A stretch of DNA of 64,000 bases. Origin: an uncultured Prevotellaceae bacterium (lineage in GTDB: Bacteria; Bacteroidota; Bacteroidia; Bacteroidales; Muribaculaceae). Position 1 is the stretch's first letter; each line of letters begins with the position of its first letter. The notes under the pieces were generated by a model. It worked only from the letters and a program-made list of their open reading frames with translations, was not told the DNA's origin and did no database searches. The stretch lies in contig ONLH01000023.1 in assembly GCA_900318645.1 (NCBI GenBank), positions 46,867 through 110,866 of the forward strand. The letters are read 5' to 3'. This document shows, piece after piece, positions 8,824 through 26,288 of the stretch. The position numbers and the translations under genes were made by a program.

Positions 8824-8906
8824 GCCCAGATGGCGGAATCGGTAGACGCGTTGGTCTCAAACACCAATGGGGTAACACCCGTGCCGGTTCGACCCCGGCT
8901 CCTTGA
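8824..8906 (+). tRNA. tRNA-Leu (CAA anticodon), acceptor stem disrupted
   Basis: The 5' acceptor strand GCCCAGA is followed by a D arm, an anticodon arm with a TTGGT/ACCAA stem and loop CTCAAAC (anticodon CAA), a class II variable arm (GGGGTAACACCC), and a T arm with GCCGG/CCGGC around TTCGACC. After the T arm the sequence reads TCCTTGA, which cannot pair with GCCCAGA; TCTGGGC would be expected. Only about three of seven acceptor pairs form. The 3' end therefore seems to have been replaced, probably by integration or deletion at the left end of the AT-rich island. A functional tRNA is doubtful. Confidence 0.72.
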
Positions 8907-9272
8907 AATTAAAGACTTTAGCGATTTTCTATTTCTCGGTTTTCCCCACATTTTCCCCACATCTGCAAAGAATCTTGCAAAAATTTTTCTTTTCCCCACA
9001 CATTTTCTTCACATTTCCCATCTTTCCCCACCAAGACCACAACAACAACCCCAACCACTTCAACTTCATTAAATCCAATTAAACAGTTTTCAATGTTTAT
9101 CTAATTGACTGAACCATCTCTACCCTATATTCGGTGAGAACTATAGTTCTTTTTAGGACGACCTAGAGTACAGATGATCTCTTGTCAAAAAACAGAAAAA
9201 GCCTTGTTCTTTTGACGTAAAATGTGTATTTTTGATTTTTAAATTATATTTTAATTATTTCTTATTCTAAAT
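8907..9272. other. Island left junction, non-coding
   Basis: About 366 bp without a credible gene. It starts at the point where the tRNA acceptor stem diverges, holds the TTTTCCCCACA repeat cluster, and becomes strongly AT-rich before the small gene at 9273. Open frames crossing the tRNA on either strand are artefacts of the tRNA sequence. Confidence 0.5.
8940..9032. repeat. Cluster of TTTTCCCCACA direct repeats next to the tRNA
   Basis: Three perfect copies of TTTTCCCCACA occur at 8940-8950, 8951-8961 and 8990-9000. Degenerate copies lie at about 9003-9013 and 9022-9032. They sit 35-125 bp beyond the tRNA-Leu junction, where arm-type binding sites of a tyrosine integrase would be expected. 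They could also be protein-binding sites of another kind. Confidence 0.55.
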
Positions 9273-9593
9273 ATGATAGAGAAAAGAATATTGGACCTAA
9301 TAAATCAAGACCATGCATTACTTGAAAGCATGTTGAGAGGAGATAATTATGGTGCAAATCATTGCAATCTGCCGATTAATTATCGTCATTTTGAAAGTAT
9401 CACATTAAGACTTTTTGATTATGTTGATACAATTCCTTCAGATTCGTTTAGTATTGAAGAATATAAACGAATTTGCGATATTAAACGAGCTATGAGAATT
9501 GATATGATGTGTCAAAAGAAGGAGCCAGTAATCAAACAACTGATGGCATATGTAGATGAAGTCATTTCGATACTTCGTTCTAAAACTGATTGA
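9273..9593 (+). CDS. Small hypothetical protein
   Basis: A 106-aa protein from ATG 9273, with AT-rich codon use typical of the island. It looks soluble and largely helical (MIEKRILDLINQDHALLESM at the N terminus), with no signal peptide, membrane segment or motif I recognise. It precedes the WYL regulator by 136 bp that contain a separate promoter, so it is probably not in that operon. It is supported by an uninterrupted frame and a plausible start, nothing more. Confidence 0.5.
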   Translation: MIEKRILDLINQDHALLESMLRGDNYGANHCNLPINYRHFESITLRLFDYVDTIPSDSFSIEEYKRICDIKRAMRIDMMCQKKEPVIKQLMAYVDEVISILRSKTD

Positions 9594-9671
9594 CTTATTC
9601 CTATTTCAACTGGAAGCTAACGTTTCGTCCTTAAGTAAACACACGCTTAACAAGCAGAGTAGCGGGAATAG

Positions 9672-9703
9672 TTTGATGATTCAAGATAAATACACTATCT
9701 TTG
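9672..9703 (+). promoter_or_regulatory. Promoter of the WYL regulator cassette
   Basis: TTTG (9672-9675), 20 nt, then TATCTTTG (9696-9703): an excellent match to the Bacteroidetes consensus. It is followed by a purine-rich ribosome-binding stretch (GGAAGGAGGAA) just before ATG 9730, unusually strong for this phylum. Confidence 0.7.
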
Positions 9704-9729
9704 CCTTTTGAAGAGGAAGGAGGAACAAT

Positions 9730-10752
9730 ATGCCCAGCAATAGAAAAGCTCTGCTACGATACAGAGTGCTTGACAAATGTCTCAGTGACCAGCATAACAT
9801 TTACTACATCGACGACCTCGTGGATGAAGTAAATCACGCGCTGGAGGTTGCAGCTATTCTGCCGGTCTCCAAGCGACAAATTTATGCCGATCTTGATTTC
9901 ATGAAGAGCACCGATGGCTGGGAGGCTCCTATCATATCCGTTCAGGATGGCAAACGGAAACACATCAAGTATTCTCGTGATTTCTCAATCATGGAGACCC
10001 CCATCACTGAGATGGAGATGGAACAGTTGGAGACGCTCATCACCTCGTTGTCAAGGCTCCAGGGCATACCAATGTACGACTGGGTGGATGATCTGCTGGC
10101 TCAGTTGCGGCCTCGCTTCGGTGGTGGCGGCAATGAGGCTAGTCTTATCGGTTTTGAACAAAACCGTGATCTGGCAGGATTGCGTTACCTGTCTTACCTA
10201 ATCAATTACACAATCAGGCACCAGGTTGTGGTGATTGACTATCATCCTTTCGGAAAGGAGAAAGTGCAGTGGATGATACATCCTTATTACCTCAAGCAGT
10301 ACAATAATCGCTGGTTCCTGTTAGGGTATAACCCATTATATGACGACTTGTCGATTGTGGCTTTGGACAGGATTGAAGGTCTCGAGCCTATCGAGAGACC
10401 CTTTAAAGAGAACCAATATATCAACTTCGACAACTACTTCCGCAATATCATTGGCGTTTCGCTTGAGGAAGAAAGAACGGTAGAACAAGTCATGTTGAAG
10501 TTCACTCCTAATCGTCTGCCCTATGTCCTCTCAAAGCCGCTCCATCACTCCCAGATGATAGAGAGCCGACGTGAGGGCATCATCTCCATTCGTGTAATTC
10601 CGAATAAGGAACTGATTTCTGAGCTGATTTGGTTTGGCAATGACGTGGAAGTACTGGCTCCAGATAGTCTGCGAGACCAGATCAAACAAAAAATTGCACA
10701 AATGCATGAAATATATTTTGGTGTGAAGAGTGACTTCACAACTGGCTCATAA
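9730..10752 (+). CDS. WYL-domain transcriptional regulator
   Basis: This 340-aa protein has an N-terminal winged-helix region (about 1-75, including VSKRQIYADLDFMKS) and a central WYL domain. The WYL core spans about 160-245: a strand VVVIDYHPFG, then HPYYLKQYNNRWFLLGYNP at about 184-203, and the closing ALDRI. A C-terminal extension (WCX-like) follows. WYL regulators sense ligands, often nucleic acid or nucleotides, and several repress phage-defence operons (BrxR, CapW). It lies 33 bp upstream of the kinase gene on the same strand, with its own strong promoter, so it probably controls the kinase/regulator pair. Confidence 0.88.
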   Translation: MPSNRKALLRYRVLDKCLSDQHNIYYIDDLVDEVNHALEVAAILPVSKRQIYADLDFMKSTDGWEAPIISVQDGKRKHIKYSRDFSIMETPITEMEMEQLETLITSLSRLQGIPMYDWVDDLLAQLRPRFGGGGNEASLIGFEQNRDLAGLRYLSYLINYTIRHQVVVIDYHPFGKEKVQWMIHPYYLKQYNNRWFLLGYNPLYDDLSIVALDRIEGLEPIERPFKENQYINFDNYFRNIIGVSLEEERTVEQVMLKFTPNRLPYVLSKPLHHSQMIESRREGIISIRVIPNKELISELIWFGNDVEVLAPDSLRDQIKQKIAQMHEIYFGVKSDFTTGS

Positions 10753-10785
10753 CTTTGCAGCCGAAAACCAAAAACACAAAAGACT

Positions 10786-13260
10786 ATGCGTACAGCAAAC
10801 AACACCAACAACTACACCGTAGAGGGCCTCGTTGCCAAGTATTGTAACTTCGTAAAGGAGAACACTCGAAAATACAAGGAGTATATTCCTCCTTATGAAG
10901 ATGAGAATGGTTATGATATTGAAGTTCCAGTATCTGATATTGATGCTAGTCCAGACCAACAATTGGTAGTTACTTTATACAATAAGGTTGCTGGTAATAA
11001 TTCAGATAAAGAAATCTTGTCTGTATTATCTGAATACTCTGATCATTTCTATAAGGGTGTTCTGAATGATGACGAATTTGCATTCTTATGCGTGCATTTT
11101 CCAGAAGTAATTGAATATGAGTTTACTCATAGAACTGACTGGTATTGCCCTTATATTCATATGCGTCTCGAAGATCAGTACGAAAAATTAGAGAATCTAA
11201 TCAAAGAAAGGGTTCCTTTTAAAGAAGGCCAGACTGTTTTCATTCCAGATGCTGGTTATTGCGACCTTGCAGTGCGCTTTAAGGGCTGTGTTGTTAAAGG
11301 CTATACAAGTATCATATCGGGCAGCAGATATAAGAAGGATATGGACATCGTATGGGCATTGGGGCAAATCCGACTCTATGCTGCCGGTATTCAATCAGAA
11401 ATCGTTCCTTATATCAATTTGAATGAGGAGTTTAATGATTCTCATGTGCAAGACAACAATCTTGTTGACTTAGTCGTTTGTCTCTCTTTTTCAAATGGAT
11501 ACGACAAACTATATAATCTGCTCAAAAAGAGTGGTCAGATGTTCCTTTTTGCCAAGCGAGACGATTTGGTCGACTATGCTAGGTATAAAGAATTCCGATA
11601 TAAAAAGATGGGCGAAGATTTTAATGAGTGGGAGGAGAAATGGGCTTTGACACGAAAGGAATTCCTCAATAAGCTCATTAAATCCCGTGCCATACATTCT
11701 TTAGTATCATATAATGACAAAGATACGGTTCTTGATGTTTCAGTTGACTGTATCCTTCTTCATATTGAGAAGAAGAATCATTCAACTGTTGATGTAGAAA
11801 GCATCAATAGGGGCGTTATTGTCAAAGTCAATCCTTCTGTTTTAGATGCCAATTTACTTTGGCCTGGCTATTATCTTGCTAATCGTCCAAAAGAAGGAAA
11901 GCCTTTGTCTAGTTTGGTTAAATTATTCAACACACAGGATGAGGTTGTTGAACAGTACTGGGCTCGTGAAGATAAGGGTATTAAATTGTCTGGTGATTTA
12001 CTCGTGCTGTCTCCGAGAGATTTTGGAAACAAGTATGCTGATGCTTGTATGAACGAAAAGGATTTGACGAAACTTTCAGACCCAATGTTTGAAGGTTGGG
12101 AACCACGCATGTTAAGCATTCATCACCCAGGTGTTTGTGTGCTTGGCAATACTAAGAAATTTCTCGTGGGTTATGTCAATGATGATCCGACAAACAAGTT
12201 CGTATGTGTAGGTATTGTGCCATACCTTATACCAAAGCGTAATATTGATGTACGCTACATCGCAGCGTTACTATTGTCTCCAGAGGTAAAAGAGCAGATT
12301 CTCACGGTTTGTGATGGTTCCATAACTGCAGAAACTATGTCATTGATTCTTGACAGAATCATCGTACCCAAGCATACACCTAAGGAGCGTATTCAGTTCC
12401 TTGCTGATACAAATTACGAAGCATTGATGTCCACCAAACAAGAGTTAAAGAAAAATCATGAGGACTACAAAAAAGCCGTCAGGATGCGTAAGCATGCTTT
12501 GACTCAAACATTGTCCTCTATGAAATCCTGCTTTTCATCATTAGACAAGTTTCGGCAGCATAATGGCGGCAAATTATCTGACGAAGATAAGATTACTCCG
12601 ATCACTGATGATACAGTTAAAGATTCGTTTGATTACTTATCATTACAATTTTCTGAAATGATGCCTATTATAGAACATATTGCTGATGTCGAATACTCTT
12701 TTCAAAATCCAGAAAAGATTGATCCCGAGAAGTTCATAGAAGACTATATCGCAAAACACGTAGGAGGTTGGCATAATTTCAAGCCCATAATGAACTGGGA
12801 AACGGGTCACAATCATTATAAATCAGATCTCGTTGATCCTATTACCCAAGAAATAGTTGCTAAAAAAGGTGATGTGATTTGGAGTTTGATTTTCCCAAAA
12901 GATGCCTTGGAGCGCGTTTTGGGCAACATTATCATGAATGCCCAGAGTCATGCTTTCATTGACAAATCACGTAAGGATTACAAGTTGCGTTTCTCTTGTT
13001 ATTCAGACGGAACATTGTTGGTTGTGAAGATTGAGAACAATGGAACCCCAATTCCGGCAGATCAAGACGTCTCTTCTTTGTTGGAATATGGTGTGTCTTC
13101 CAAACTTCACCAAGACGGTCATAATGGCATTGGGTGCAGTGAAATTGATGATATCATGCGACGCTATGATGGTAAATTAGAATTAGTATCATCTCCGAAT
13201 GAGGAATTTACGGTGAAGTACATCCTCTCGTTCAAATCTAATATTTTAGGAAGTTTTTAA
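10786..13260 (+). CDS. Histidine kinase fused to a degenerate N6-methyltransferase-like region
   Basis: This 824-aa soluble protein has no membrane segment. Residues about 120-290 resemble the fold order of HsdM/Eco57I-type adenine methyltransferases, but SAM motif I (GxG) is absent and the NPPF position reads LSFS, so it looks inactive; this assignment is inference. Residues about 470-545 look like the target-recognition part of such enzymes. From about 560 it is a histidine kinase: RKHALTQTL with H570 as likely phosphoacceptor, an N box around N714-N718, a G1 block VVKIENNGTPIP (746-757) and a G2 block HNGIGCSEI near 780. The kinase half is convincing. The partner response regulator starts 12 bp downstream. 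A promoter-like TAACTTTG (10750-10757) overlaps the upstream stop codon. Confidence 0.72.
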   Translation: MRTANNTNNYTVEGLVAKYCNFVKENTRKYKEYIPPYEDENGYDIEVPVSDIDASPDQQLVVTLYNKVAGNNSDKEILSVLSEYSDHFYKGVLNDDEFAFLCVHFPEVIEYEFTHRTDWYCPYIHMRLEDQYEKLENLIKERVPFKEGQTVFIPDAGYCDLAVRFKGCVVKGYTSIISGSRYKKDMDIVWALGQIRLYAAGIQSEIVPYINLNEEFNDSHVQDNNLVDLVVCLSFSNGYDKLYNLLKKSGQMFLFAKRDDLVDYARYKEFRYKKMGEDFNEWEEKWALTRKEFLNKLIKSRAIHSLVSYNDKDTVLDVSVDCILLHIEKKNHSTVDVESINRGVIVKVNPSVLDANLLWPGYYLANRPKEGKPLSSLVKLFNTQDEVVEQYWAREDKGIKLSGDLLVLSPRDFGNKYADACMNEKDLTKLSDPMFEGWEPRMLSIHHPGVCVLGNTKKFLVGYVNDDPTNKFVCVGIVPYLIPKRNIDVRYIAALLLSPEVKEQILTVCDGSITAETMSLILDRIIVPKHTPKERIQFLADTNYEALMSTKQELKKNHEDYKKAVRMRKHALTQTLSSMKSCFSSLDKFRQHNGGKLSDEDKITPITDDTVKDSFDYLSLQFSEMMPIIEHIADVEYSFQNPEKIDPEKFIEDYIAKHVGGWHNFKPIMNWETGHNHYKSDLVDPITQEIVAKKGDVIWSLIFPKDALERVLGNIIMNAQSHAFIDKSRKDYKLRFSCYSDGTLLVVKIENNGTPIPADQDVSSLLEYGVSSKLHQDGHNGIGCSEIDDIMRRYDGKLELVSSPNEEFTVKYILSFKSNILGSF

Positions 13261-13272
13261 TTCAAAATAGAA

Positions 13273-14313
13273 ATGAGAAATTATGATTTAATCCAAGTAT
13301 TATGGGTTGAAGATGATGGTTCCATCATCAACCAGTACAAGAAAGATGCTTATTATGCTAATCTAGAACTAGTTTCTTATCCTTGTTGGGACGATGCAAG
13401 AGAGGCTCTAGAGAATGAATATGACCGATGGTCTGCAATTATCCTTGATGCCAAATGTAAGCATCATCGTGATAGTTCAGATAGTGCTGTAGTTTTTCTA
13501 CGTGAAGCTCTAAAGGATATTTCAGTGCTCGCAGAGAAGAAACAAAGTGTTATCCCCTGGTATGTGTTAACTGGAGGTGACACAACTGAAGTTTCCGATA
13601 GCATTAACGATGAAAGATTAAGATGGGATAGTGATTGGACAAGGAGTAGCAACAAAAAATACTATTCAAAGAATACTGATACAGGGATGCTCTATGATCG
13701 TATTAGGACTCATGCTAGGTATTCATATTGTCTTCAAATACATAAATTGTATCGCAATGTTTTTGAGGCTATAGAAGAGTGCAAAATTGACGATGCTGCT
13801 TATAATGCCCTTGAGGACTTGTTGATTCCCGTCCATTTTCCTAATGCGATTGAAGCTAAAGACTATAATGATAAATATCAGAAAGCGAGGGATGTACTGG
13901 AATATATCTTCCGTTCCATGTCTACCTTTGGGATTCTTCCTAATTGGGGCAAACAAGTAAACCTCACTGCGTCCAGTCTCCTCCTTGACAATATGGATTT
14001 CAAGAATAAAGATGACTCACCCATAGTGACGAGTAGAGCCCGCATTCTTCCCAAGGAATTATCACGTATTATGAAAGTGATGGTGAATATCATTCCACCA
14101 TTCTGCCATTCGGATAGTGGTATCGAAGACAATGTTCGCAAAAAAGAGTACATTAACTCCGTTGATAATTCTACATTCTTGCTAAAGAGTTTCACTCTTC
14201 AATTCTGTGACTTAATCCTCTGGTACCGCAACTATCTGCGAGAACATCCTGATAAGGAGGAGAATGCTAAAAACTGGGAAGTCATGGATGAAAAACAACT
14301 AAAGCGAAGATAA
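13273..14313 (+). CDS. Response regulator with unknown C-terminal effector region
   Basis: This 346-aa protein has a complete receiver signature: VLWVEDD with acidic D14/D15, phosphoacceptor D59 in IILDAKCK, T100 in YVLTGGD, and K128/K129. The receiver is somewhat unusual, with long insertions between strands. Residues about 165-346 form a helical region with no DNA-binding HTH or enzyme motif I recognise, so the output is unknown. It is encoded 12 bp after the kinase and must be its partner. A perfect hairpin terminator follows at 14326-14356, closing the three-gene cassette. Confidence 0.75.
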   Translation: MRNYDLIQVLWVEDDGSIINQYKKDAYYANLELVSYPCWDDAREALENEYDRWSAIILDAKCKHHRDSSDSAVVFLREALKDISVLAEKKQSVIPWYVLTGGDTTEVSDSINDERLRWDSDWTRSSNKKYYSKNTDTGMLYDRIRTHARYSYCLQIHKLYRNVFEAIEECKIDDAAYNALEDLLIPVHFPNAIEAKDYNDKYQKARDVLEYIFRSMSTFGILPNWGKQVNLTASSLLLDNMDFKNKDDSPIVTSRARILPKELSRIMKVMVNIIPPFCHSDSGIEDNVRKKEYINSVDNSTFLLKSFTLQFCDLILWYRNYLREHPDKEENAKNWEVMDEKQLKRR

Positions 14314-14325
14314 TAATTTTTGAGG

Positions 14326-14356
14326 AATAGGCAATGTGGTGCCAGCATTGCCTATT
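14326..14356 (+). terminator. Terminator after the WYL/kinase/regulator cassette
   Basis: AATAGGCAATG (14326-14336) and CATTGCCTATT (14346-14356) form a perfect 11-bp stem with a 9-nt loop, followed by TTCTT. The 3' arm also contains the -33 TTG of the next gene's promoter. The arm sequence AATAGGCAA recurs at 14389-14397 just before the next start codon. Confidence 0.7.
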
Positions 14357-14378
14357 TCTTAGATTATTTGTACATTTG
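14348..14378 (+). promoter_or_regulatory. Promoter of the AlbA_2 regulator gene
   Basis: TTG (14348-14350), 20 nt, then TACATTTG (14371-14378) matches the Bacteroidetes promoter. The start codon at 14399 is about 20 nt downstream of the -7 box, giving a very short leader. Confidence 0.6.
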
Positions 14379-14398
14379 CAAACTTAACAATAGGCAAA

Positions 14399-15742
14399 AT
14401 GGCAGAGGATCAGAACATAGAATACAAGAAATCTTGGCGTGACGAGTATCTGAAGTGGATTTGCGGCTTTGCCAATGCGCAAGGTGGCAAACTTTATATC
14501 GGCATCGATGATGATAAGCGGATTGTAGGCGTTGAAAATTCACATCGTTTGCTGGAAGATATACCCAATAAGATCGCCACAACCATGGGCATTGTTTGTG
14601 ATGTGAATCTGCGCAAAAAAGACGGGAAAGAGTATATTGAAATCATTGTCGAACCAAGCAATGTGCCTATTGCTTACAAAGGCGAATACCACACTCGAAG
14701 TGGTGCCACCAAACAACAGTTGAGAGGAACCGCATTACAGCTTTTTATTCTTAAGAAGATGGGTATGAGCTGGGACGATATTCCTCATCCAAGTGCAACT
14801 ATTGAATGTATTGATGAGGAAGCTGTCAAGTATTTTGTTGAAAAAGCGATTGACGCAGAGCGTCTTTCTCCCTCTGCTCGAAAAGACTCAGTGGAAAAAG
14901 TGCTCCACAACCTTGAGCTTATTGATGATGAAAATCATCTTAAGAATGCAGCCATCTTGTTGTTTGGCAAGAAGCCACAGCACTTTTTCGGGGGTGTTGA
15001 ATTCAAAATTGGACGGTTTGTCCATGACAACACAGACTTAATCATTCAAGATGTTGTAACTGGTAATATCTTGCAAATGGCCGATGAAGTGATTAGCATC
15101 CTGCGTTCGAAATACCTGATTTCTCCGATTCATTATGAAGGAATGGTTAGGAAAGAGCCATTGGAGATTCCCGATTCAGTTTTACGTGAGGCAATATATA
15201 ATGCAATCGTTCACAAGGATTATTCTGGCGTATCTATCCAGATGAAAGTTTGGAATGACCGCATTGAACTTTGGAACGATGGAACGCTGCCCGAAGGATA
15301 CACGATAGAAACATTGCTGAGTGAGCACTCGTCAAAGGCCAGAAATAAAAACATAGCTAACGTGTTCTATATGGCTGGTTTTATCGAGACTTGGGGTCGC
15401 GGTATTGACAAGATACGTAATGGGCTGAAAGATGCTCATCTACCAGAACCAAGTTTCCAAGAGTATTGTGGAGGTTTGCGGGTAACAATTCCTAGAGCTA
15501 AATTATTAAGCGACTTGTTATATTATGACACTCAAAAACTGAGTGCTCGTCAAAAGAAGATCTTAAATATGATACGCAAGGACATTATGATGTCCGGGAA
15601 TATGCTATCTGCCCGGTTAGGTGTATCTTTGTCAACTGTTAGACGAGATATTAAAGCTTTGACTAAGATGGGGGTTCTACAATATGCTGGATCAAGTAAA
15701 GATGGACATTGGGAGATTTTAAAAGAAATTGGTACTAAGTAG
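14399..15742 (+). CDS. AlbA_2 (Schlafen-like) / HATPase_c_4 putative regulator
   Basis: This 447-aa protein belongs to the family once annotated as RecG-like or 'putative transcriptional regulator'. Residues 1-115 are the AlbA_2 (Schlafen AAA_4) domain, with EYKKSW, NAQGGKLYIGIDDD and the conserved YHTRSGATKQ strand. Residues about 255-365 are the HATPase_c_4-like part (REAIYNAIVHKDYSG, then FYMAGFIETWGRGIDKI). The last 65 residues are a winged helix (LGVSLSTVRRDIKALTKMGV). Such proteins are common in Bacteroidales islands; they are thought to act as regulators, with targets unknown. A 12-bp tandem repeat begins immediately after the stop codon. Confidence 0.85.
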   Translation: MAEDQNIEYKKSWRDEYLKWICGFANAQGGKLYIGIDDDKRIVGVENSHRLLEDIPNKIATTMGIVCDVNLRKKDGKEYIEIIVEPSNVPIAYKGEYHTRSGATKQQLRGTALQLFILKKMGMSWDDIPHPSATIECIDEEAVKYFVEKAIDAERLSPSARKDSVEKVLHNLELIDDENHLKNAAILLFGKKPQHFFGGVEFKIGRFVHDNTDLIIQDVVTGNILQMADEVISILRSKYLISPIHYEGMVRKEPLEIPDSVLREAIYNAIVHKDYSGVSIQMKVWNDRIELWNDGTLPEGYTIETLLSEHSSKARNKNIANVFYMAGFIETWGRGIDKIRNGLKDAHLPEPSFQEYCGGLRVTIPRAKLLSDLLYYDTQKLSARQKKILNMIRKDIMMSGNMLSARLGVSLSTVRRDIKALTKMGVLQYAGSSKDGHWEILKEIGTK

Positions 15743-15810
15743 TGACACTCAAAATGACACTCAAAATGACACTCAAAGTGATACTCAAAATGATACTCTA
15801 AATATCACTC
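15743..15810 (+). repeat. 12-bp tandem repeat after the AlbA_2 gene
   Basis: About six imperfect copies of GACACTCAAAAT follow the stop codon directly. In the +1 frame they read as Asn-Asp-Thr-Gln repeats and stay open to a TAG after 15840. Linkers of this kind normally lie inside AlbA_2 proteins, before the winged helix, so this looks like a displaced or slipped coding repeat rather than random intergenic DNA. Confidence 0.7.
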
Positions 15811-15921
15811 TAATGAATTTTCTAAATAGAAAACCTAACATTGCATAGAATATGTTTGTTGTGAAGTGTCACTGCACAACAAGGCGCTACCTTTGCCATC
15901 GGAAACCAAAACGAGATTGCA

Positions 15922-17979
15922 ATGGTAGAGAACAACTTCACATTTGACCCCAACAACAAAGAGCAGCAGAAGGCTTTCGAGCTTGTAAAGAACACAAATA
16001 GCAGCTTGTTTATCACAGGAAAGGCCGGTACTGGAAAAACAACTTTTATCAAGCGTATTCAACAAGAGATCAATAAGAACTTCTTGGTGTTAGCTCCGAC
16101 AGGAATTGCTGCTCTCAAGGTCGAAGGACAGACCATTCATTCCGTTTTCCGCTTTCCGTTTGGTACCATTACGCCCGATACTATATTATGGGGTGATTAT
16201 AGGAAGATGCCTGAATTGTATCAAAGGTCTATAGCGCTTATGAGAAATGTTGATACCATTATCGTTGATGAAGTGTCAATGGTAAGGTGTGACCTTGTTG
16301 ATGCGATGGACAGAATACTGCGCTGGGTAATGACCACAAATCAACCTTTTGGAGGTAAACAGGTCATCTTTGTTGGTGACTTGTGCCAATTGCCACCAGT
16401 AACTCGAAAATATGATTTGGATATCCTCTCTAGATATTATGGTGGGGGTACTCCGTTTTTCTATAAAGCACAAGTAATCAGAAGAATGAACTTGCCAAAA
16501 ATTGAGTTTTCTAAGGTTTATCGCCAAACAGATATTAAGTTCATCAACTTGCTCAATAAGATGCGAACCGGCGAGACCACAAACACCGATTTAGAGTTAT
16601 TGAATCAACATATTGGCACTCCAGATGATAGTGATGATTTCTTCATCACCTTAGCCACCGTTAATAGGAAAGCCGATGCAATCAATTCACAAAAGCTTGC
16701 TGCTCTTGATGGAGAAGAGTATAGCTACGATGGAGTAGTAACTGGCAATTTCAAGATTGAGGATTGCCCGGCTCCCGAGTCATTGAATCTGAAGGTAGGT
16801 GCTCAGGTCATTATCTGCCGCAACAAGTGCGTCAAAGGATGTGTGAATGGCACTATTGCAAAGGTCGTAGCCTTGGGTGATGATCATATCAAGATAATTC
16901 TTGAGGATGGGCGCGAAGAATTTGTGGAGAAAACTACCTGGACTAAGAACGAGAAGGTACTTAACGAAGAAAATGGCAAACTCGAAGAACGAGAGGTGGG
17001 CAGTTTCCTTCAGTACCCCTTGAAACTCGCTTGGGCCATTACCATCCACAAGTCTCAAGGCATGACCTTTGATCGTATGCACTTTGATTTATCTGGGGGT
17101 GTATTCGCCTCAGGCCAGACCTATGTTGCCATCAGTCGTATGCGCTCATTAGATGGCTTGACCTTAAGCAGTCCAATTAAGCCAAGAGACATTAAGGTGA
17201 ATCACGAAGTGAGCGAATTCTACAAGTCGCTCAACGACTATAACGTGATTGATACGGAGTTGGTAACAGGTGCGACTATTAAGCATTGCTTGGATACGAA
17301 AGACTACAATGGTGCAGTTCGTTACTGTTTACAGAAGACTATCGATCAGACACATCAAGGAGACTATCGCAGTGCTGTCTTGATGGCGAAGATGATGTTT
17401 GATGTCATGCTTGATGATGACTGTTTATTAGGCTTGACAAACAACGAGAAAGTCGTCAACATTGCCACTACGACATGCAGTTTCTTAAATGCAGTGATTT
17501 GTCTCTATGGCAATCGCTTCGAGTTGGCTATCAATTATGCAGACAAGGTTCTAGCACATCGAATGTGTATCGATGCTCTTTTCGTTAAAGCACGCGCCCT
17601 CTACGCACTTGGCAAGTATGAAGAAGCATACGATGTCAATTTTGAGATTGGTATGGCTTCCAGCAAGACTGTCGAAGGAGAAGTCAAGGATCAGAAACAA
17701 TACTTGTTTGAGGCTAAAGTCAACGAGAAGCTTGGTCAAAGTAATGTAGACCTCTGCAAAAAGCTACTCAAGTTGTGTCCAGTATGCTTTGGAGCCTATG
17801 CAATGATGCGCCGTGAGGCTATTAAGAACGGCAGAATCATAGAAGAGTCTGGGCGATTATACAATGCCTTCAACGATGCGTCGATAAGCGATGATGATTT
17901 CATTGAGCAACTCGCCCAAGCAGATAGTCGTGAACTTGCGAAGTTCAACAAAAAAGTGTGTCGTATCTCTGATATGTGA
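15922..17979 (+). CDS. PIF1/RecD-like superfamily 1 helicase with C-terminal TPR-like extension
   Basis: This 685-aa protein has an SF1B helicase core: Walker A GKAGTGKT at 33-40, motif Ia LAPTGIAAL, Walker B VDEVSM with D116/E117, and a late motif AWAITIHKSQGMTFDRM near residue 375 (UvrD_C_2 type). PIF1 helicases unwind DNA 5' to 3' and resolve R-loops or G-quadruplexes. Residues about 430-685 are helical with TPR-like spacing (ALFVKARALYALGKYEEAYD), an extension absent from core PIF1. It follows the AlbA_2 gene by 180 bp; a TACCTTTG box at 15888-15895 gives it its own likely promoter. Confidence 0.85.
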   Translation: MVENNFTFDPNNKEQQKAFELVKNTNSSLFITGKAGTGKTTFIKRIQQEINKNFLVLAPTGIAALKVEGQTIHSVFRFPFGTITPDTILWGDYRKMPELYQRSIALMRNVDTIIVDEVSMVRCDLVDAMDRILRWVMTTNQPFGGKQVIFVGDLCQLPPVTRKYDLDILSRYYGGGTPFFYKAQVIRRMNLPKIEFSKVYRQTDIKFINLLNKMRTGETTNTDLELLNQHIGTPDDSDDFFITLATVNRKADAINSQKLAALDGEEYSYDGVVTGNFKIEDCPAPESLNLKVGAQVIICRNKCVKGCVNGTIAKVVALGDDHIKIILEDGREEFVEKTTWTKNEKVLNEENGKLEEREVGSFLQYPLKLAWAITIHKSQGMTFDRMHFDLSGGVFASGQTYVAISRMRSLDGLTLSSPIKPRDIKVNHEVSEFYKSLNDYNVIDTELVTGATIKHCLDTKDYNGAVRYCLQKTIDQTHQGDYRSAVLMAKMMFDVMLDDDCLLGLTNNEKVVNIATTTCSFLNAVICLYGNRFELAINYADKVLAHRMCIDALFVKARALYALGKYEEAYDVNFEIGMASSKTVEGEVKDQKQYLFEAKVNEKLGQSNVDLCKKLLKLCPVCFGAYAMMRREAIKNGRIIEESGRLYNAFNDASISDDDFIEQLAQADSRELAKFNKKVCRISDM

Positions 17980-18349
17980 CTATTGACTTCATTTTGAGCG
18001 AGCGATGAGATCAAGAAATAACAGAAGAGCATTTCCGCGACTCTCGATAGGTATCACTAAGTAATCGTTATGTGGTCATTAAGTATCTCCTTTGGCGGGC
18101 CTTTAGTATCTAAAATCTCTGTATGCCTCGCCATCTACTTCGGCTGCAATACCTTGGCAACCACAAATTACAAAATGGTTTTTGTGACAAAATATAGATA
18201 CAATCGGAAAATAATGTATTTTTGCAGGACAAGCTTACTTAATTGATTTTTAATAATGATATCGAATTATTAATGAGAGAATAATTATATCGGCTTAGCT
18301 TTAAATTTGAGTATTCGATATATAAAATTCCATATATTACCATTTGATT
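17980..18349. other. Intergenic, no gene seen
   Basis: About 370 bp between the helicase and the lipoprotein gene. A TATTTTTG at 18217-18224 could be a -7 box for the lipoprotein but has no well-spaced -33 partner. The last 120 bp are very AT-rich. No hairpin terminator was obvious. Confidence 0.4.
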
Positions 18350-19456
18350 ATGAAAGCAATTATATTTACCATCTCATCTGCTATTGTGTTATTGTCAGCT
18401 TGTGGCGGACGTGCAGGTTCAAACTTCGACCCGCGTGACACTGTGAATGTTCCTGAAGGATTAACTGGAGAGGACAGCATCGCCTATATCGAGAACGCCA
18501 TTTTGAAAAGCCCAATTTCCGCTGCTGATTTGCTCAGTCTTGCTGAAGTTCATACGGTTCAAGATAGGCTTTTTCATTGCTATGAAGAAGCGGGATGTCC
18601 CGTTTATGACCCTTACTCTAGAGGAGATCATCAAACCGAAAGGCGTGATTCTGCAGCAATGTCCCTGGCCAACCGGCTCATCCGTATGGCTGATCTTGTC
18701 AATCTCAATGGCGATGCCAACGACAAGCTGCAGTGGGCTGTAGCCGTCAATGTCGCCATTGATTCGTATCATGTAGCTGTCCCATCGTTACCGATTGACT
18801 CAGTGGTTTTCGATATCAATCGTGTCGTAAGCAAGTTCTCGAATGATACACAATCTGAATTGAACTTCAGATGGTATGTTAAAGCTACTGTTGACTATTA
18901 CCGAACGATTGAGGCTTATCGGCAGTGGCTATCTGAGGTGCCGTCCAATATCAAATCTTTGATACATAATGAATATGTCGCATGGCACAATTTTAATGAA
19001 GCCCGTTTTGCCTTTTGGCGCGACGTGTCCTACAACCAGGAATGGTACAGTATGAAACCAATGGAAATAGAAGGCTATTATGAGAATCTTTCGGCAAACC
19101 GACGTGCTGAATTGGAAGAAGAACGCAGTATTATCTTAGAAGGCAAGCCATATTTTCAGAAAGGCAAGACAGTAGCATCGTCACAATGGGAGAAATGGAT
19201 TACCGACCATTCCGTTCCAGAGGATATTGAATACTTGAGAAATGAGTTTTGGAAAGACAGAATACCAAGCGATAGTATCGTAAACAATCGAGTCAACACT
19301 TTGAAGTCCACTTTCTCTCAATGGATGGAAGCACATAAGGCCATCGCAAAAGCATTACCGCAAGAACAAAGCAAGTGGTATGATAATATGACCTTAGATA
19401 TTTTCTGCCGTTTAGTTGGGAGACTTAACAATATCATTCCATTAGAGGAATTGTAA
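18350..19456 (+). CDS. Hypothetical lipoprotein
   Basis: The protein is 368 aa from ATG 18350; a TTG two codons upstream is possible but less likely. It has a lipoprotein signal peptide ending in a lipobox (VLLSACGG), so it is exported and lipidated. The mature part is helical and rich in Trp, Tyr and charged residues. It has an LprI-like feel (NEYVAWHNFNEARFAFWRD), but I cannot assign a family with confidence. It stands alone between the helicase and a minus-strand pair, with AT-rich island codon use in parts. Confidence 0.65.
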   Translation: MKAIIFTISSAIVLLSACGGRAGSNFDPRDTVNVPEGLTGEDSIAYIENAILKSPISAADLLSLAEVHTVQDRLFHCYEEAGCPVYDPYSRGDHQTERRDSAAMSLANRLIRMADLVNLNGDANDKLQWAVAVNVAIDSYHVAVPSLPIDSVVFDINRVVSKFSNDTQSELNFRWYVKATVDYYRTIEAYRQWLSEVPSNIKSLIHNEYVAWHNFNEARFAFWRDVSYNQEWYSMKPMEIEGYYENLSANRRAELEEERSIILEGKPYFQKGKTVASSQWEKWITDHSVPEDIEYLRNEFWKDRIPSDSIVNNRVNTLKSTFSQWMEAHKAIAKALPQEQSKWYDNMTLDIFCRLVGRLNNIIPLEEL

Positions 19457-19840: not shown

Positions 19841-21319
19841 TTAACTAATTATTTCCCAGAAGCCGCCTTTATCTGGACCGACTCTGCGAAGGTACTTGCC
19901 ACGCATGGCTTCAATATTGCGATAAATTGAAGTTTCACTGATACCTAACATTTTTGCCAAATCTGCTCTTGAGATATATGGGTCTTCCATCATCAGTTCC
20001 AGTATCCTGATTCGATTTTGTGTCAACTTTTCACCTAATGAAGTAGCTTTTTCTATCAACTTTTCTGTTAACTTACCTTGGTTTTCTGCTACCTTTTCTG
20101 CTACCCCACTTTGATTTTCTGCTACCTTTTCACCGTTTACAGTTACTTTTTCTGCCACTTTGGGTACGGTAATCTTCAAGATGAAGTCGTCGGTGCGGAA
20201 GGAAAGGGCAGATGTGCCGTTGGCTTCAAGTTCTCTATAGATGCGGTCAACGCCCTCACCATATTCCTTGACGTAGTGATAAGCCTTTAGGAAAGCGGCA
20301 ATCTTCGGGTTACGGGAGAAATGGGTGTTGCGGATGTTGGTAGGCTTCACCATTCCAGGCAGTTTACCAGGTGATTCAAACACAAGTCGGTCGTCAAACA
20401 TTTTGATTTGAATCTCGGTCCCCTTGATGCTGTAAGCCCGATGGCAAACGCTGTTCACCGTCATCTCTTGAATGACGAATTCGGGATAATCGCGGCGCGT
20501 CACGAACTGAGCATGTTGTCCCAGGAATGTGTGTTCCCTAACCTGGGTCTCTATGAACTCTATGGTTCTCCTGACTTGGTTCAGGATGGTACCCTCAAAA
20601 GTCACATCCTTGATGACGTTCATCTCAGCACCCACCTTTTCATCGACACCCTCGTATCTGATGAAACGAGTGCGGGCACGAGGAAAGAACTGCTGGGGAT
20701 TCTTGCCGAATAGCAGAATGCAAGCCGTGCTGACATCTTCCTCGCCCTGCTTATTGGTCGTTACGAAGCCATTGTTCTCTCGCAAGTATTCCAATGGGGT
20801 CTTGCTATATCCGACCAGCCTGGTATATTCAGCAACGGCATCCATGTCGATGTCATCAACGGTGGCACCATAGACAGCCGTATCCTCATAGAAACGCTCA
20901 CCTTTGTCGTACATCAGCTGCACACGCTCATCAAACGATAGCTTCCGACTCTTGTCACCCACACGCATAAACGCTTCATCCGCCTGGTTGGTGTGCAGAT
21001 ACATACTGGCAGGGATTTCCATCAGCAAAATATGGTTCTTATTCCCATCCTTGTCCCTGCAAGGCAAGTAGGAACAGGTCACGGGAATCGACGGATTGCA
21101 GAAGTCAAACGGAACACGAAGCAGCTCATTGAGCTTTTCCGTATGCTGGTCAACACCCTCAAGCGCCCTAGTTTTATCCGACACACCGATGGCAAGTACA
21201 CCGCCGTCAGCGTTTGCCATTGCCACGATGGGCACAGCCAAAGCCTTCGGGTCAATCTGAATGCTCTTGCAATCAAACGTCTGGTCCTCCTTGCGAGTCG
21301 TTATTTCTTGTATGGTCAT
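19841..21319 (-). CDS. Second AlbA_2 / HATPase_c_4 putative regulator with repeat linker
   Basis: This 492-aa paralog-type protein has an AlbA_2 domain at 1-120 (FDCKSIQIDPKAL, ANADGGVLAIGVSD), a HATPase_c_4-like region at about 265-375 (VNSVCHRAYSIKGTEIQIKM, then AYHYVKEYGEGVDRIYREL), and a C-terminal winged helix (ISRADLAKMLGISETSIYRNI). Between them, about 385-440, is a repetitive linker of VAEKVAENQ and EKL units, likely variable in length between strains. It differs in sequence from the 14399 gene, so the two were probably acquired separately. Confidence 0.85.
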   Translation of the reverse strand: MTIQEITTRKEDQTFDCKSIQIDPKALAVPIVAMANADGGVLAIGVSDKTRALEGVDQHTEKLNELLRVPFDFCNPSIPVTCSYLPCRDKDGNKNHILLMEIPASMYLHTNQADEAFMRVGDKSRKLSFDERVQLMYDKGERFYEDTAVYGATVDDIDMDAVAEYTRLVGYSKTPLEYLRENNGFVTTNKQGEEDVSTACILLFGKNPQQFFPRARTRFIRYEGVDEKVGAEMNVIKDVTFEGTILNQVRRTIEFIETQVREHTFLGQHAQFVTRRDYPEFVIQEMTVNSVCHRAYSIKGTEIQIKMFDDRLVFESPGKLPGMVKPTNIRNTHFSRNPKIAAFLKAYHYVKEYGEGVDRIYRELEANGTSALSFRTDDFILKITVPKVAEKVTVNGEKVAENQSGVAEKVAENQGKLTEKLIEKATSLGEKLTQNRIRILELMMEDPYISRADLAKMLGISETSIYRNIEAMRGKYLRRVGPDKGGFWEIIS

Positions 21320-21727: not shown

Positions 21728-22591
21728 TTAATATTTCTGTTTCTTTGGAATCACACCGCGAACTCCACCTTTTGGATTCTCCACGTCGCCTTTATAACGA
21801 GGAATTAGGTGCATGTGGCAGTGAAAAACGGATTGGCCGGCGGCTTCGTTAATGTTTATGCCGACGTTATAACCATCAGGGTGGAAGCGCTCGTCTATCT
21901 TTTGTTTGACGTATTGCAGCATTACATTCATGGCCTCGCGCTCATGATTAGTGAGGTCGAAGTATGAGGCCACATGACGTTTGGGTATAATCAACGCATG
22001 ACCAGGTGAAACCGGGTAGCCGTCATGGAATGCGACACAAGTCGCCGTTTCGCAGATGATTTCCACCCTGCGAGACAGACGACAGAATGGGCATTTCTCG
22101 CCTTCGACTCGTGGGAGTTTGTTGAAATGGTTATATTGGTAGAGTTCGTAACTCTTGTTAGCAACAAGGCTCTTGAACGGCAATTTGACATTACACTGAT
22201 AGGTGTATTGCTTGTGAATCGCATGGAGCCTAAAACCTTCTTCAACCAAGTCACGACGTACTGCAAAATAAGCGGTTCCTTTAGGTGATAGCAGGTTTGT
22301 CACGTTCATCATTACTTCTGCCTGGGCATAAGGCTCAAGGACGTTAAGCACATAGTTGCAAATGATGGTATCAAACTTGCCCACTGGAAAGTCAGGACGG
22401 TAATAGTAGTCGTAGCCTGTCACATCATATCCCAGTTTGCAAAGTTCGTCTGTGTCGTAGCCGAAGCCACACCCGAAGTCGAGTATCTTTCCTTTCAACA
22501 AGTCATTTTGCAAGAGATATCTGGTTGGCACAGAAAAGTCACTGCGCTTAATTGCTGTCAGATAGGGATGATTTATCTTCTCTGGTTCCAT
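21728..22591 (-). CDS. Fusion of a class I SAM methyltransferase and a HIT-family hydrolase
   Basis: The protein is 287 aa from ATG 22591; a TTG at 22609, inside the upstream gene, would add six residues. Residues about 30-130 are a small methyltransferase fold: ILDFGCGFGYD (motif I), then DTIICNYVLNVL and LLSPKGTAYFAVRR. Residues about 165-287 are a HIT domain with CPFCRL, GHALIIPKRH and the catalytic triad string HCHMHLI. HIT proteins hydrolyse nucleotide conjugates such as AMP-lysine or dinucleoside polyphosphates. The fusion implies a linked modification and hydrolysis step on an unknown substrate. It lies 5 bp after the HNH gene. Confidence 0.85.
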   Translation of the reverse strand: MEPEKINHPYLTAIKRSDFSVPTRYLLQNDLLKGKILDFGCGFGYDTDELCKLGYDVTGYDYYYRPDFPVGKFDTIICNYVLNVLEPYAQAEVMMNVTNLLSPKGTAYFAVRRDLVEEGFRLHAIHKQYTYQCNVKLPFKSLVANKSYELYQYNHFNKLPRVEGEKCPFCRLSRRVEIICETATCVAFHDGYPVSPGHALIIPKRHVASYFDLTNHEREAMNVMLQYVKQKIDERFHPDGYNVGININEAAGQSVFHCHMHLIPRYKGDVENPKGGVRGVIPKKQKY

Positions 22592-22596
22592 GGGTA

Positions 22597-23667
22597 TCAA
22601 TATTTCCAAGTCTCAAAACCCATGTTGAGGGCTATTTGACTCATTGGGTTAAACGTCCTTTCGTATAATTCATGGAATCTCTCATCGCTCATTTCAGCCA
22701 ATTCCCTTGGGGTATAACCCAATGAAATGTAATCCTCCATGACTTGTGGCCTCTTATTGGCATTTACCATCAACCGCAATGATCGATGTTGCATTAAAGC
22801 CAATTTGGGCAGATAGAAGTCCAGATCGGGTAGTTTATTACTTTTTGATGAGTTGATGCTGTCATCTGAAGGAATCAAGTTCCACAACAAGTCGTGTGAC
22901 ACAAAACTCCACGGAATAAAGTGATCCAGCTCATAGTCCGATGAATAGAGTTCTTTGTCCGTATAAATGCAATGAATGGGACCACCAAGATTGATTACAG
23001 TATCCCAATAATTATGCTGCTTTGTCAAAGCGTTTCTGACTTCGGGCTTAATCAACTTATTGGGAATGGCTGGAACATTAGGATTACGGACTTGCAAGAA
23101 TAACGTCAAATTCCAGTAAGCAAAATCCAATAATATATTGTAATGGCCATGCAGATAAGCATCCCAAATGGGATTAAGCTCGATATAGAACCCGCCATCC
23201 TCTTTATGTAACGAATACAGGCAACCGTTTTCAAAGCCTTGAGAGCGTTTTACCATATCCTTGTCATCACTGGTATCAATCCACGGGCGAAGGAAACGAT
23301 AAGGCACATTTAACGTAAGTGTTCTCAATAAACATTGAATTTGTCTATCTTCAAGCCTCTCTTTCAGTGCCTCGATAATTGACTCTGTATTTGCATCAAT
23401 CGGAATCCGGGTAATCCTATGCAATTCCGTAACAATGTCAAATAGCGAGTCACTTTTACCAAACGACAAGCGGAAATAATGAATTGGATACCACGCATTA
23501 GCGACCATACGAATCACAATATCCCACACATCCATTCGCAGATTGCCCGACCTGGCATGTATCTGCAAGATCGATACAAACCAGAAATATTTATATGTAG
23601 CCACCGTCTTAGAGAAAACCTTTCCAAGACAGTTCGTCGTTAATATTTCCGACTGGGGTATCTGCAT
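22597..23667 (-). CDS. HNH endonuclease-domain protein
   Basis: A 356-aa protein with a C-terminal HNH-type nuclease signature at about 260-300: YELDHFIPWSF supplies the conserved Asp-His pair, followed by LLWNLIPSDDSINSSKSNKL with the Asn and Lys positions. The first 240 residues match no family I recognise and may recognise the target. It would be a metal-dependent DNA nickase or endonuclease. Translationally close to the methyltransferase-HIT gene, it forms a two- or three-gene unit that is defence-like in composition. Confidence 0.8.
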   Translation of the reverse strand: MQIPQSEILTTNCLGKVFSKTVATYKYFWFVSILQIHARSGNLRMDVWDIVIRMVANAWYPIHYFRLSFGKSDSLFDIVTELHRITRIPIDANTESIIEALKERLEDRQIQCLLRTLTLNVPYRFLRPWIDTSDDKDMVKRSQGFENGCLYSLHKEDGGFYIELNPIWDAYLHGHYNILLDFAYWNLTLFLQVRNPNVPAIPNKLIKPEVRNALTKQHNYWDTVINLGGPIHCIYTDKELYSSDYELDHFIPWSFVSHDLLWNLIPSDDSINSSKSNKLPDLDFYLPKLALMQHRSLRLMVNANKRPQVMEDYISLGYTPRELAEMSDERFHELYERTFNPMSQIALNMGFETWKY

Positions 23668-23850: not shown

Positions 23851-24909
23851 TCACTCGTTTAAATAGAATACCAAATTATTCGGTTCTCGAAGTTTCTCAA
23901 ATTCATCAGAATCAAGCATGTCATCAAATGGTCTAAAAGAATACCTCAAATCATTAGCATTATCGTTTGGCAGGGAAACAGGGTGACCACCATTCCAAAA
24001 TTCTAAATTACCTTTCTTTGTTTTAACTCTTATTGAAATTGTCTCCTCTGCATCATTGGTAAAAAACAAGATAGAATTTGCATCATTTAATGTATTAGTA
24101 TTCTGAAGATTGAAATAAATACATTTTCCAGATACGGTATTAGGTTTTCCAAATTTGTAGGTTGAACCTATATAGGCATCTATGTTTTTTTTCTTTACGA
24201 GTTCCAAAATCATGTTATCCCAGAACTTTTCAATTGTTTCGTTATCGTATTCATTGTCTGAAATGTTAAGCTGAATTTTTCCAGAGTTATAATAAAGTTT
24301 CTTGGCATTTAAAATCACTGGTGTTTTTAGACCTTCTTGACTTAACACGGAATTAATAGTCTCTTTGTTGCCTGTTATTGCAGAACATAACTGACTATCA
24401 TTGCTGAAAAGTGCAACATATTGAAGCCTATCGTCATTCGTTGGGAAAACACTAGATATGGTAACCATACAATCTTCACGCGATACTTTTGATTGTAATA
24501 TAAAGTTACAAGTTGGCACTATAAGATTCTCATGAAGAACATGGTCGTCAAATAGCCGATTAAATGTCGAATCTAACATAGACATTTTCTCATTAACTAT
24601 TGTCGATACCTCTTGCATCTTCTGAGTATAGTCTAAACCATTTGTGTCCCAATTATGATTTTTTATGTATAATTTTTCTTTTTTATCTGGATAATGTCCT
24701 AATACTGAATGGCCAAAGAAACATATTTTCAAAACCTCTGTGAGTTCAAATTCGACATAGTGAGATGAACGAAGCCTAACAGATCTTTTATTGTTGAGGT
24801 AATTAATACTATGATTTAGGATCGGTTTGGTGCCTAATACATAGTCAACCAAGATATTCGTATCAAGGAAGATATCAATCTTAAATTTGTCGTTGACAAA
24901 ATGTTGCAT
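23851..24909 (-). CDS. PIN-like nuclease with novel C-terminal domain
   Basis: This 352-aa protein starts with a PIN-type acidic constellation: D16 in IFLDTNILVD, a Glu in VEFELTEVLK (53-60), D146 in VSREDCMV and D171 in FSNDSQL. A helical insertion lies between the second and third. This is the pattern of metal-dependent RNA- or DNA-cleaving PIN nucleases. Residues about 200-352 form a beta-rich domain (GKCIYFNLQNTNTLND, EFWNGGHPVSLP) with no match I know. It is the last gene of the minus-strand operon, 1 nt after the ATPase gene, and is the likely effector. Confidence 0.68.
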   Translation of the reverse strand: MQHFVNDKFKIDIFLDTNILVDYVLGTKPILNHSINYLNNKRSVRLRSSHYVEFELTEVLKICFFGHSVLGHYPDKKEKLYIKNHNWDTNGLDYTQKMQEVSTIVNEKMSMLDSTFNRLFDDHVLHENLIVPTCNFILQSKVSREDCMVTISSVFPTNDDRLQYVALFSNDSQLCSAITGNKETINSVLSQEGLKTPVILNAKKLYYNSGKIQLNISDNEYDNETIEKFWDNMILELVKKKNIDAYIGSTYKFGKPNTVSGKCIYFNLQNTNTLNDANSILFFTNDAEETISIRVKTKKGNLEFWNGGHPVSLPNDNANDLRYSFRPFDDMLDSDEFEKLREPNNLVFYLNE

Positions 24910-24910
24910 G

Positions 24911-26287: not shown

Positions 26288-26288
26288 A

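Follow-up and report, generated by a model that had tools for sequence, protein, structure and literature searches.

A histidine kinase whose sensor resembles a dead type I methyltransferase with its specificity domain: a putative DNA-reading phosphorelay beside defence genes in some Bacteroidota

Three genes at positions 9730-14313 of a 64,000-nt stretch of DNA (the window, on contig C38 of an uncultured Prevotellaceae genome) encode a WYL-family regulator, a cytosolic histidine kinase and a response regulator. The sensor of the kinase appears to be built from restriction-enzyme parts, namely a relative of the type I methyltransferase HsdM that looks dead and a target-recognition domain (TRD) of the kind found in the specificity subunit HsdS. 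Similar phosphorelay pairs are found in certain Bacteroidota, from the gut and elsewhere, and frequently adjoin genes of DNA defence; this suggests a DNA-reading alarm that switches defence on. I am confident of the anatomy of the kinase and the regulator. The sensing of DNA or of a DNA mimic, and the control of defence, seem plausible from the domains and their neighbours, with chances that I put at about even. The interpretation I favour, with confidence just short of even, is that the pair is most likely a DNA-triggered (or decoy-triggered) phosphorelay controlling neighbouring defence genes. A fuller version, which I hold a shade more tentatively, has foreign DNA or a phage DNA mimic acting through the converted sensor on a phosphorelay over adjacent, exchangeable defence modules, with sensor, core and output recombined as modules. 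If true, restriction-enzyme parts would here serve a two-component system for the direct reading of DNA and so couple DNA discrimination to a phosphorelay; signalling from restriction to other defences becomes a testable question.

The kinase (824 aa, 10786..13260, + strand) shows no indication of a membrane segment, because its highest 19-residue hydropathy mean is only 1.09. Its catalytic core is that of a two-component kinase, with a histidine in the dimerisation helix followed by an ATPase domain with N, G1 and G2 boxes: H570, N714, N718, N751-N752-G753 and G781-I782-G783 are all in place, and Pfam HATPase_c matches residues 706-811 (2e-6). Relatives were collected by querying one genome from each of 84,980 species with the regulator alignment, which gave 52 related loci. 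Across 47 aligned kinases (L045, the sensor-less L052, L053, L056 and L060, L062, the phage record L010 and loci L001-L009 being left out), H570, N718, G781 and G783 are invariant and every member matches HATPase_c. In the AlphaFold2 model (mean pLDDT 80.6, pTM 0.68) a 61-residue helix, 532-592, follows the TRD and bears H570; together this dimerisation and histidine phosphotransfer (DHp) helix and the ATP-binding (CA) domain are encoded by 12381..13260. All of this agrees with an earlier sequence-only reading of the window, which had given the same coordinates and strands for the three open reading frames, a kinase free of membrane segments with H570, N718, NNG and GIG, and a regulator with a complete receiver.

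That reading had also seen in the first 540 residues of the kinase the block order of an HsdM/Eco57I-type methyltransferase. The fold is indeed there, by profile comparison and by the model, but it does not account for the whole region: residues ~360-530 (11791..12380) are, judging from sequence similarity, a separate HsdS-type TRD that runs into the phosphorylatable helix, while the HsdM/N6-adenine methyltransferase fold is encoded by 11131..11790. For the window kinase alone, HATPase_c is the sole Pfam match above cut-off, N6_Mtase gives no match, and the PADLOC model Specificity_I matches residues 461-566 weakly (1.6e-4). Among the 47 kinases Pfam finds N6_Mtase in 19 (best 3.5e-22) and Methylase_S in six, and the PADLOC models MTase_I and mad2 match 17 each, Specificity_I 15 and mad5 11. 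Against solved structures, the family profile gives 2.4e-22 for EcoR124I HsdM and 1.2e-5 for HsdS. Profile alignment by hhalign places the window clade (20 kinases) with HsdM at E=8.7e-9 and with HsdS at E=1e-4 (probability 58%), the nine control alignments per comparison all being 0.06 or worse; the remaining kinases give 6e-29 and 9.4e-10 (probability 96.5%), with controls at 0.055 or worse. A direct profile comparison of the window clade with the remaining kinases gives 6e-32 and 5.9e-29. The clade lists behind the hhalign, divergence and correlation comparisons were hand-picked and locus pairs are not independent, so these clade statistics are descriptive only.

A structural comparison with methyltransferases, put forward with the sequence-only reading as a check on it, likewise recovers the fold. 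Foldseek with the kinase model ranks M.TaqI at the top (2.4e-10), and CamA, type I-like methyltransferases and histidine kinases are also among the matches listed. The TM-score for M.TaqI is 0.27 by query and 0.51 by target, the query value being low because only one part of the kinase is matched. The likeness to HsdM is one of sequence and fold, and that of the TRD to HsdS one of sequence.

The loss of the NPPF motif, noted earlier for the window kinase, extends through the aligned set: catalytic motif IV, [NDS]PP[FYW], occurs nowhere in the protein in any of the 47 aligned kinases, and at its site some read CPPF, MPPF, FPPF, FPPM or TPPW. Motif IV is retained in all 13 examined HsdM proteins that adjoin such kinases. 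By its sequence, the methyltransferase part of the kinase looks like a dead enzyme. The kinases of L011, L014 and L015 are longer, at ~1,000 aa, with an N-terminal stretch that by eye resembles a second recognition domain. Two further ideas about the sensor found no support. One is that the TRD would be hypervariable in the manner of HsdS; TRD and pseudo-methyltransferase parts diverge to a like degree. The other is that a kinase would be most similar to the restriction proteins linked to it; when whole kinases are compared, the HsdS of the kinase's own locus ranks first in 0 of 14 cases and the HsdM in 0 of 13.

The response regulator (346 aa, 13273..14313, + strand) begins with a receiver domain (13273..13722) that has the expected acidic pair, phosphorylatable aspartate, threonine and lysine (E13-D14-D15, D59, T100 and K133). 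In an alignment of 50 regulators (without L045, L060, L062, L010 and L001-L009; the alignment of the output domain omits 11 of the 50), D59, R206 and H279 are invariant and E210 is nearly so. The model (mean pLDDT 89.9) shows receiver similarity to PorX and KdpE in Foldseek; as the receiver dominates the search (query TM-score 0.25-0.29 over the best 50 matches), the result says little about the output domain. That domain (13723..14313) is helical and, in the window regulator, matches no Pfam family, and neither the Pfam scans nor the model reveals a recognised DNA-binding domain in the regulator. It had been described as an unusual helical orphan. Unusual it remains, but in place of an orphan it is possibly a relative of DUF4145, a family of the HEPN group whose members are, according to an excerpt of PMC3710099, fused to restriction endonuclease and helicase modules, with catalytic residues "mostly conserved (80%)". 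With an E limit of 0.1, DUF4145 matches three of the 50 regulators (best 0.0051); the window regulator is not among them. In hhalign the output domain meets DUF4145 at E=0.0041 but with a probability of 8%. Eleven alignments were compared, three with DUF4145 sets; this one scored best, and the best without DUF4145 gave 0.059. The comparison set consisted of Pfam-matched loci plus five HsdR N-termini picked by eye. The same alignment places R206...E210 and H279 on conserved DUF4145 positions. The canonical HEPN RNase motif, R-x4-6-H, is not conserved in the alignments examined: invariant H279 has no conserved arginine 5-7 residues before it, and the invariant arginine lies at 206. A sequence search of the output domain against solved structures gave five weak matches (best 0.0039), none of which I judged meaningful.

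Among window-like loci, the kinase core and the receiver have been exchanged as one block. Between the window and L029, DNA identity is 79% over the first 115 kinase residues, 92% over the pseudo-methyltransferase and 88% over the TRD; it is 63-67% over DHp, CA and receiver, then 92% over the output domain and 99.8-100% over the downstream AlbA and Pif1 genes. L035 has the same break points, with 73% over the first 115 residues, 83% and 87% over the two sensor parts, 66-72% over core and receiver, 86% over the output, 73% over AlbA and 71% over Pif1. In L036 the pattern is reversed, with the kinase parts at 97-100%, the receiver at 92%, the output at 78% and the WYL gene at 86%. In 20 window-like loci, the pairwise identities of CA and receiver correlate at 0.46, those of DHp and CA at 0.66, DHp and receiver at 0.33 and output and receiver at 0.36, against -0.01 to 0.19 for CA with the sensor parts and -0.14 to 0.14 for the sensor parts with the receiver (L051 was left out of the correlation). 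These data come from metagenome-assembled genomes, but a single assembly error is unlikely because L029 and L035 also differ from each other in the core: their protein identity is 62-75% over core and receiver and 79-91% over pseudo-methyltransferase, TRD and output. Because core and receiver move together, kinase and regulator are probable partners; the local pattern is what one would expect if specificity held a genuine kinase and its receiver together, and the two are likely cognate. It would amount to a natural experiment in signalling specificity, in which kinase core and receiver are replaced together and sensor and output stay.

Upstream of the kinase lies the WYL gene (9730..10752, + strand, 340 aa; Pfam WYL 3.8e-10, WCX 3.2e-11). 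BrxR and CapW repressors carry both WYL and WCX domains, as this protein does, and by its domains it is probably a DNA-binding regulator of the cassette. The three genes share the + strand, with 33 nt between WYL and kinase genes and 12 nt between kinase and regulator genes, and their GC content is 0.40, as against 0.50-0.56 in the window beyond 30 kb. A terminator-like hairpin (14319..14363, + strand; 19-pair stem, T-rich tail) follows the regulator gene; it is one of eight such sites in 9100-18400, where shuffled sequence gives a mean of 5.3 (sd 2.4). The sequence-only reading had the WYL gene and this terminator framing a unit of three genes. Both elements are present, but the transcription unit may extend beyond the hairpin, since two genes follow on the same strand that are both kept in L029 and L035 (Pif1 alone in L036). 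These are a gene for an AlbA_2 (Schlafen-type)/HATPase_c_4/winged-helix (wHTH) protein (14399..15742; Pfam SLFN_AlbA_2 1.3e-16, HATPase_c_4 1.4e-22, HTH_11 8.3e-9) and one for a Pif1-type helicase (15922..17979; PIF1 1.1e-32), both possibly associated with the pair. The AlbA_2 gene likewise sits between regulator and Pif1 in L029 and L035 and is absent from L036.

A search for further pairs with the same output domain had been proposed alongside the sequence-only reading, and it was productive, yielding the 52 loci of the genome scan and eight more from an even sampling described below. Most of the 52 carry Bacteroidales labels, with exceptions that include L026 (Lachnospiraceae), L045 (Erysipelothrix), L055 ('uncultured bacterium') and L062 (Bernardetia). 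The neighbourhood table has 53 rows, comprising the window, L010 and 51 of the scan loci (L045, a 3.5-kb contig, is left out), and annotation covers part of the neighbour genes. In 44 of the 53 rows the kinase has a WYL-family gene upstream in the same orientation, and in 33 that gene is immediately adjacent. The nine without it are four with less than 0.8 kb of upstream sequence (L021, L023, L027 and L051), the four sensor-less loci (L052, L053, L056 and L060) and L062. An HsdM gene comes next after the regulator in seven of the 51 scan loci (L011, L013, L014, L015, L047, L054 and L059) and in L010, at a distance of 399 nt in L054 and at most 20 nt elsewhere. A Pif1-type helicase is commoner than restriction: 20 of the 51, and the window as well, encode one on the regulator's strand no more than five genes downstream. 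Neighbours among the 24 scan loci with neither include a YhcG nuclease (the L046 cluster, which takes in some Pif1 loci too), a NERD/UvrD helicase (L016), a UvrD helicase (L012) and a DprA-like protein (L028).

The output-domain profile was also run on 395 genomes drawn evenly across Bacteroidota, of which nine match, the window's own included. All eight further loci encode a kinase that matches the family profile. Type I restriction genes adjoin seven of them, with HsdM-HsdS straight after the regulator in six (L090, L092, L093, L094, L096 and L097) and an HsdR gene on the far side of the WYL gene in L091; L095 has AAA_15 and UvrD genes. The WYL gene is beside the kinase in five of the eight, on the same strand in L090 and L091 and divergent in L092, L095 and L096; in L094 it is four genes off, and the fetched stretches of L093 and L097 show none. 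Judging from these neighbourhoods, type I restriction is a common and possibly ancestral partner of the pair, and the AlbA-Pif1 form in the window would be derived. A DNA- or phage-sensing two-component defence, which had been called plausible, gains from this context, with sensing, phosphotransfer and protection as its predicted steps.

Within the family to which the genome belongs, nine of 297 genomes match the kinase at 1e-5, its own included; the match in L009 looks by eye like an ordinary sensor kinase. No plasmid record matches, none of 13 candidates in a scan of viral contigs was confirmed, and the single match among phage records is L010, an unannotated 82-kb scaffold. L010 (MT835483.1 11373-24425) is filed as 'Bacteriophage sp.' and has WYL-kinase-regulator genes with HsdM, HsdS and HsdR; by eye it also encodes a conjugation coupling protein and may be a mobile element and not a phage. 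Three loci, L034, L037 and L055, contain a second, diverged kinase (L034 and L037 a second regulator as well), and such pairs would need insulation from cross-talk.

How might such a pair work? The TRD and pseudo-methyltransferase parts would bind a DNA site or a DNA-mimicking phage protein. In HsdS the recognition domain is followed by a coiled coil; the corresponding helix here is the DHp helix, and a change on binding could travel down it. H570 would then be phosphorylated and the phosphate handed to D59. The phosphorylated regulator may act through its output domain, as a protein-binding and possibly DUF4145/HEPN-like module, on neighbouring defence genes or proteins, which would be type I restriction in some relatives and the AlbA and Pif1 genes in the window. 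The WYL protein most likely represses the cassette until damage or infection.

Several observations pull the other way. No type I genes adjoin the window locus itself, the 24 scan loci mentioned above have neither HsdM nor Pif1 downstream, and some neighbours have no defence character (an epimerase in L017, an HHH_3 protein in L019). Sensor-less relatives of the pair lie among housekeeping genes in four loci: L052 has pfkB, Met_synt_B12 and lpxK neighbours by Pfam, L053 and L056 have the same gene clusters, and L060 shows two upstream housekeeping neighbours only, its contig ending in the regulator before any lpxK could be seen. The link of the output domain to DUF4145 is weak, and its pairing with HsdR is not general, because the HsdR proteins of L047, L059, L091 and L096 lack a DUF4145 match. 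In the exchange data, identity is lower over the N-terminal 115 kinase residues than over the rest of the sensor (79% with L029, 73% with L035), and the contrast loses much of its strength once all 46 loci are taken (0.40-0.73 for sensor parts with receiver, 0.77 for CA with receiver). One of the eight even-draw kinases, that of L097, retains NPPW, its S-adenosylmethionine (SAM) loop being lost by eye. As own-locus HsdS and HsdM never rank first, the idea that the kinase reads the same site as its linked HsdS is unsupported. Motif IV holds the flipped adenine in a methyltransferase, and with the motif lost, sensing of N6-methyladenine (m6A) itself is disfavoured.

What else could explain the pair? 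The pseudo-HsdM/HsdS kinase might be a guarded bait for phage anti-restriction proteins, DNA mimics of the Ocr/ArdA type, whose targets are type I methyltransferases; it would read no DNA site in normal life, and binding would fire a back-up defence. In its favour, an HsdM-HsdS-like platform is conserved although its active site is dead, in a subset of loci it stands beside real HsdM and HsdS, and the ninth Foldseek match of the kinase is a type I methyltransferase solved with Ocr (7eew). However, the second recognition-like domain in L011, L014 and L015 suggests real DNA reading, and in 44 of the 51 scan loci the gene directly downstream is not HsdM. I regard the bait as unlikely without its being far-fetched. 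A similarly low probability goes to the view that the pair is an ordinary dosage regulator, which merely tunes neighbouring restriction or defence genes to growth or to the methylation state of the genome and has no role in sensing infection. The WYL gene and the gene order would suit it, and there are precedents for restriction or immune operons headed by a regulator, as excerpts on RptR (PMC12255303) and CapK/CapS (PMC13373217) describe; against it stand the missing DNA-binding domain in the regulator and the many copies that adjoin genes other than restriction genes.

The remaining alternatives seem far weaker. Were the HEPN-like output itself an RNase released by phosphorylation, the regulator would be an abortive-infection effector. 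The invariance of R206 and H279 in 50 regulators, and the mostly conserved catalytic residues of DUF4145 within the HEPN group (PMC3710099, in excerpt), speak for this, but with the R-x4-6-H motif not conserved and the DUF4145 homology weak I find it very improbable. More improbable still is a housekeeping signalling pair carried along in islands. The sensor-less relatives near pfkB, Met_synt_B12 and lpxK (L052 by Pfam, L053 and L056 by clustering, and L060 by its upstream two) are what would favour it, and they also qualify the finding that the output in the window is no known housekeeping type, a point on which the sequence-only reading had staked its claim and which the lack of a Pfam family there bears out. 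Yet all even-draw loci adjoin defence-type genes, and among those loci of the scan table that have a full-length sensor kinase and whose upstream sequence exceeds 0.8 kb only L062 is without an upstream WYL gene, although the even-draw L093 and L097 show none either. A phosphorelay triggered by DNA or a decoy and acting on neighbouring defence genes stays the interpretation I prefer.

The window has other features near the locus. At ~8824-8905 lies sequence that by eye resembles a tRNA-Leu(CAA) gene with its 3' acceptor half unpaired, perhaps the left boundary of a genomic island; ARAGORN and Rfam report no tRNA there (Rfam has no match anywhere in the window), and its 3' end is not duplicated elsewhere in the window. 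A second AlbA_2/HATPase_c_4/wHTH gene lies on the - strand at 19841-21319, ~4 kb from the first. Also on the - strand, a methyltransferase domain fused to a HIT domain (21728-22609) has an HNH_4 endonuclease gene alongside (22597-23667). Four more - strand genes at 23851-28477 may form another methylase-linked defence operon: an N6_N4 DNA methylase (27221-28477), an unknown protein (26289-27221), an AAA-like ATPase with weak BrxD/mad8 matches (24911-26287) and a second unknown protein (23851-24909).

How does the pair compare with known systems? In a full-text literature search, whose scope excluded preprints and most subscription papers, none of the matches listed describes a kinase with an HsdM/HsdS-type sensor. 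Detocs, in the excerpt of PMC11249213, is a published claim of two-component logic serving defence, as proposed here; it is a three-gene family whose best-described member has an ATP-degrading PNP effector, and Pfam finds no such domain at the window locus. No Detocs-named family is among the PADLOC matches listed, from a library not confirmed to include Detocs models. Features of CapK/CapS reported in part of PMC13373217 are also reminiscent of the pair: genes for a GHKL kinase and for its substrate precede immune operons of various kinds, and DNA is the signal. That kinase is, however, of an HTH-STAS-GHKL type, acting on a STAS-wHTH repressor through serine phosphorylation, and a Pfam scan of the window proteins finds no STAS domain. 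Like the BrxR/CapW repressors mentioned in the available portions of PMC12255303 and PMC13373217, the WYL-WCX protein heads a cassette; unlike them, it heads a kinase-regulator pair.

Among published systems the nearest is HEF_HK/Response_reg_2, a two-component-like pair that is soluble and linked to restriction (PMC8011034, in excerpt). In both systems a soluble kinase and a regulator are encoded by adjacent genes linked to restriction-modification, and the sole known domain of the regulator is REC-like. The HEF_HK kinase has mostly a MORC-type HATPase_c_3 N-terminal domain, whereas the window kinase has an HsdM/HsdS-derived sensor, and the HEF_HK pair accompanies type II systems and C5 methylases in particular (PMC8011034). 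Their families, PF19191 and PF19192, match neither the window locus nor any of the 47 aligned kinases or 50 regulators; both match at one place in this genome, on contig C24 at 54.6-58.8 kb, near an N6_Mtase match. The genome may thus hold two different restriction-linked phosphorelays, the HEF_HK/Response_reg_2 pair on C24 and the pair in the window.

Finally, the mad2 and mad5 models of the MADS system match 17 and 11 of the 47 kinases, which I read as shared methyltransferase and specificity ancestry, the MADS models having no kinase fusion as far as their output shows. The window kinase follows type I HsdM and HsdS in fold and in order, from methyltransferase to target-recognition domain to long helix, and departs from them in a sensor that is without motif IV and fused to a histidine kinase.

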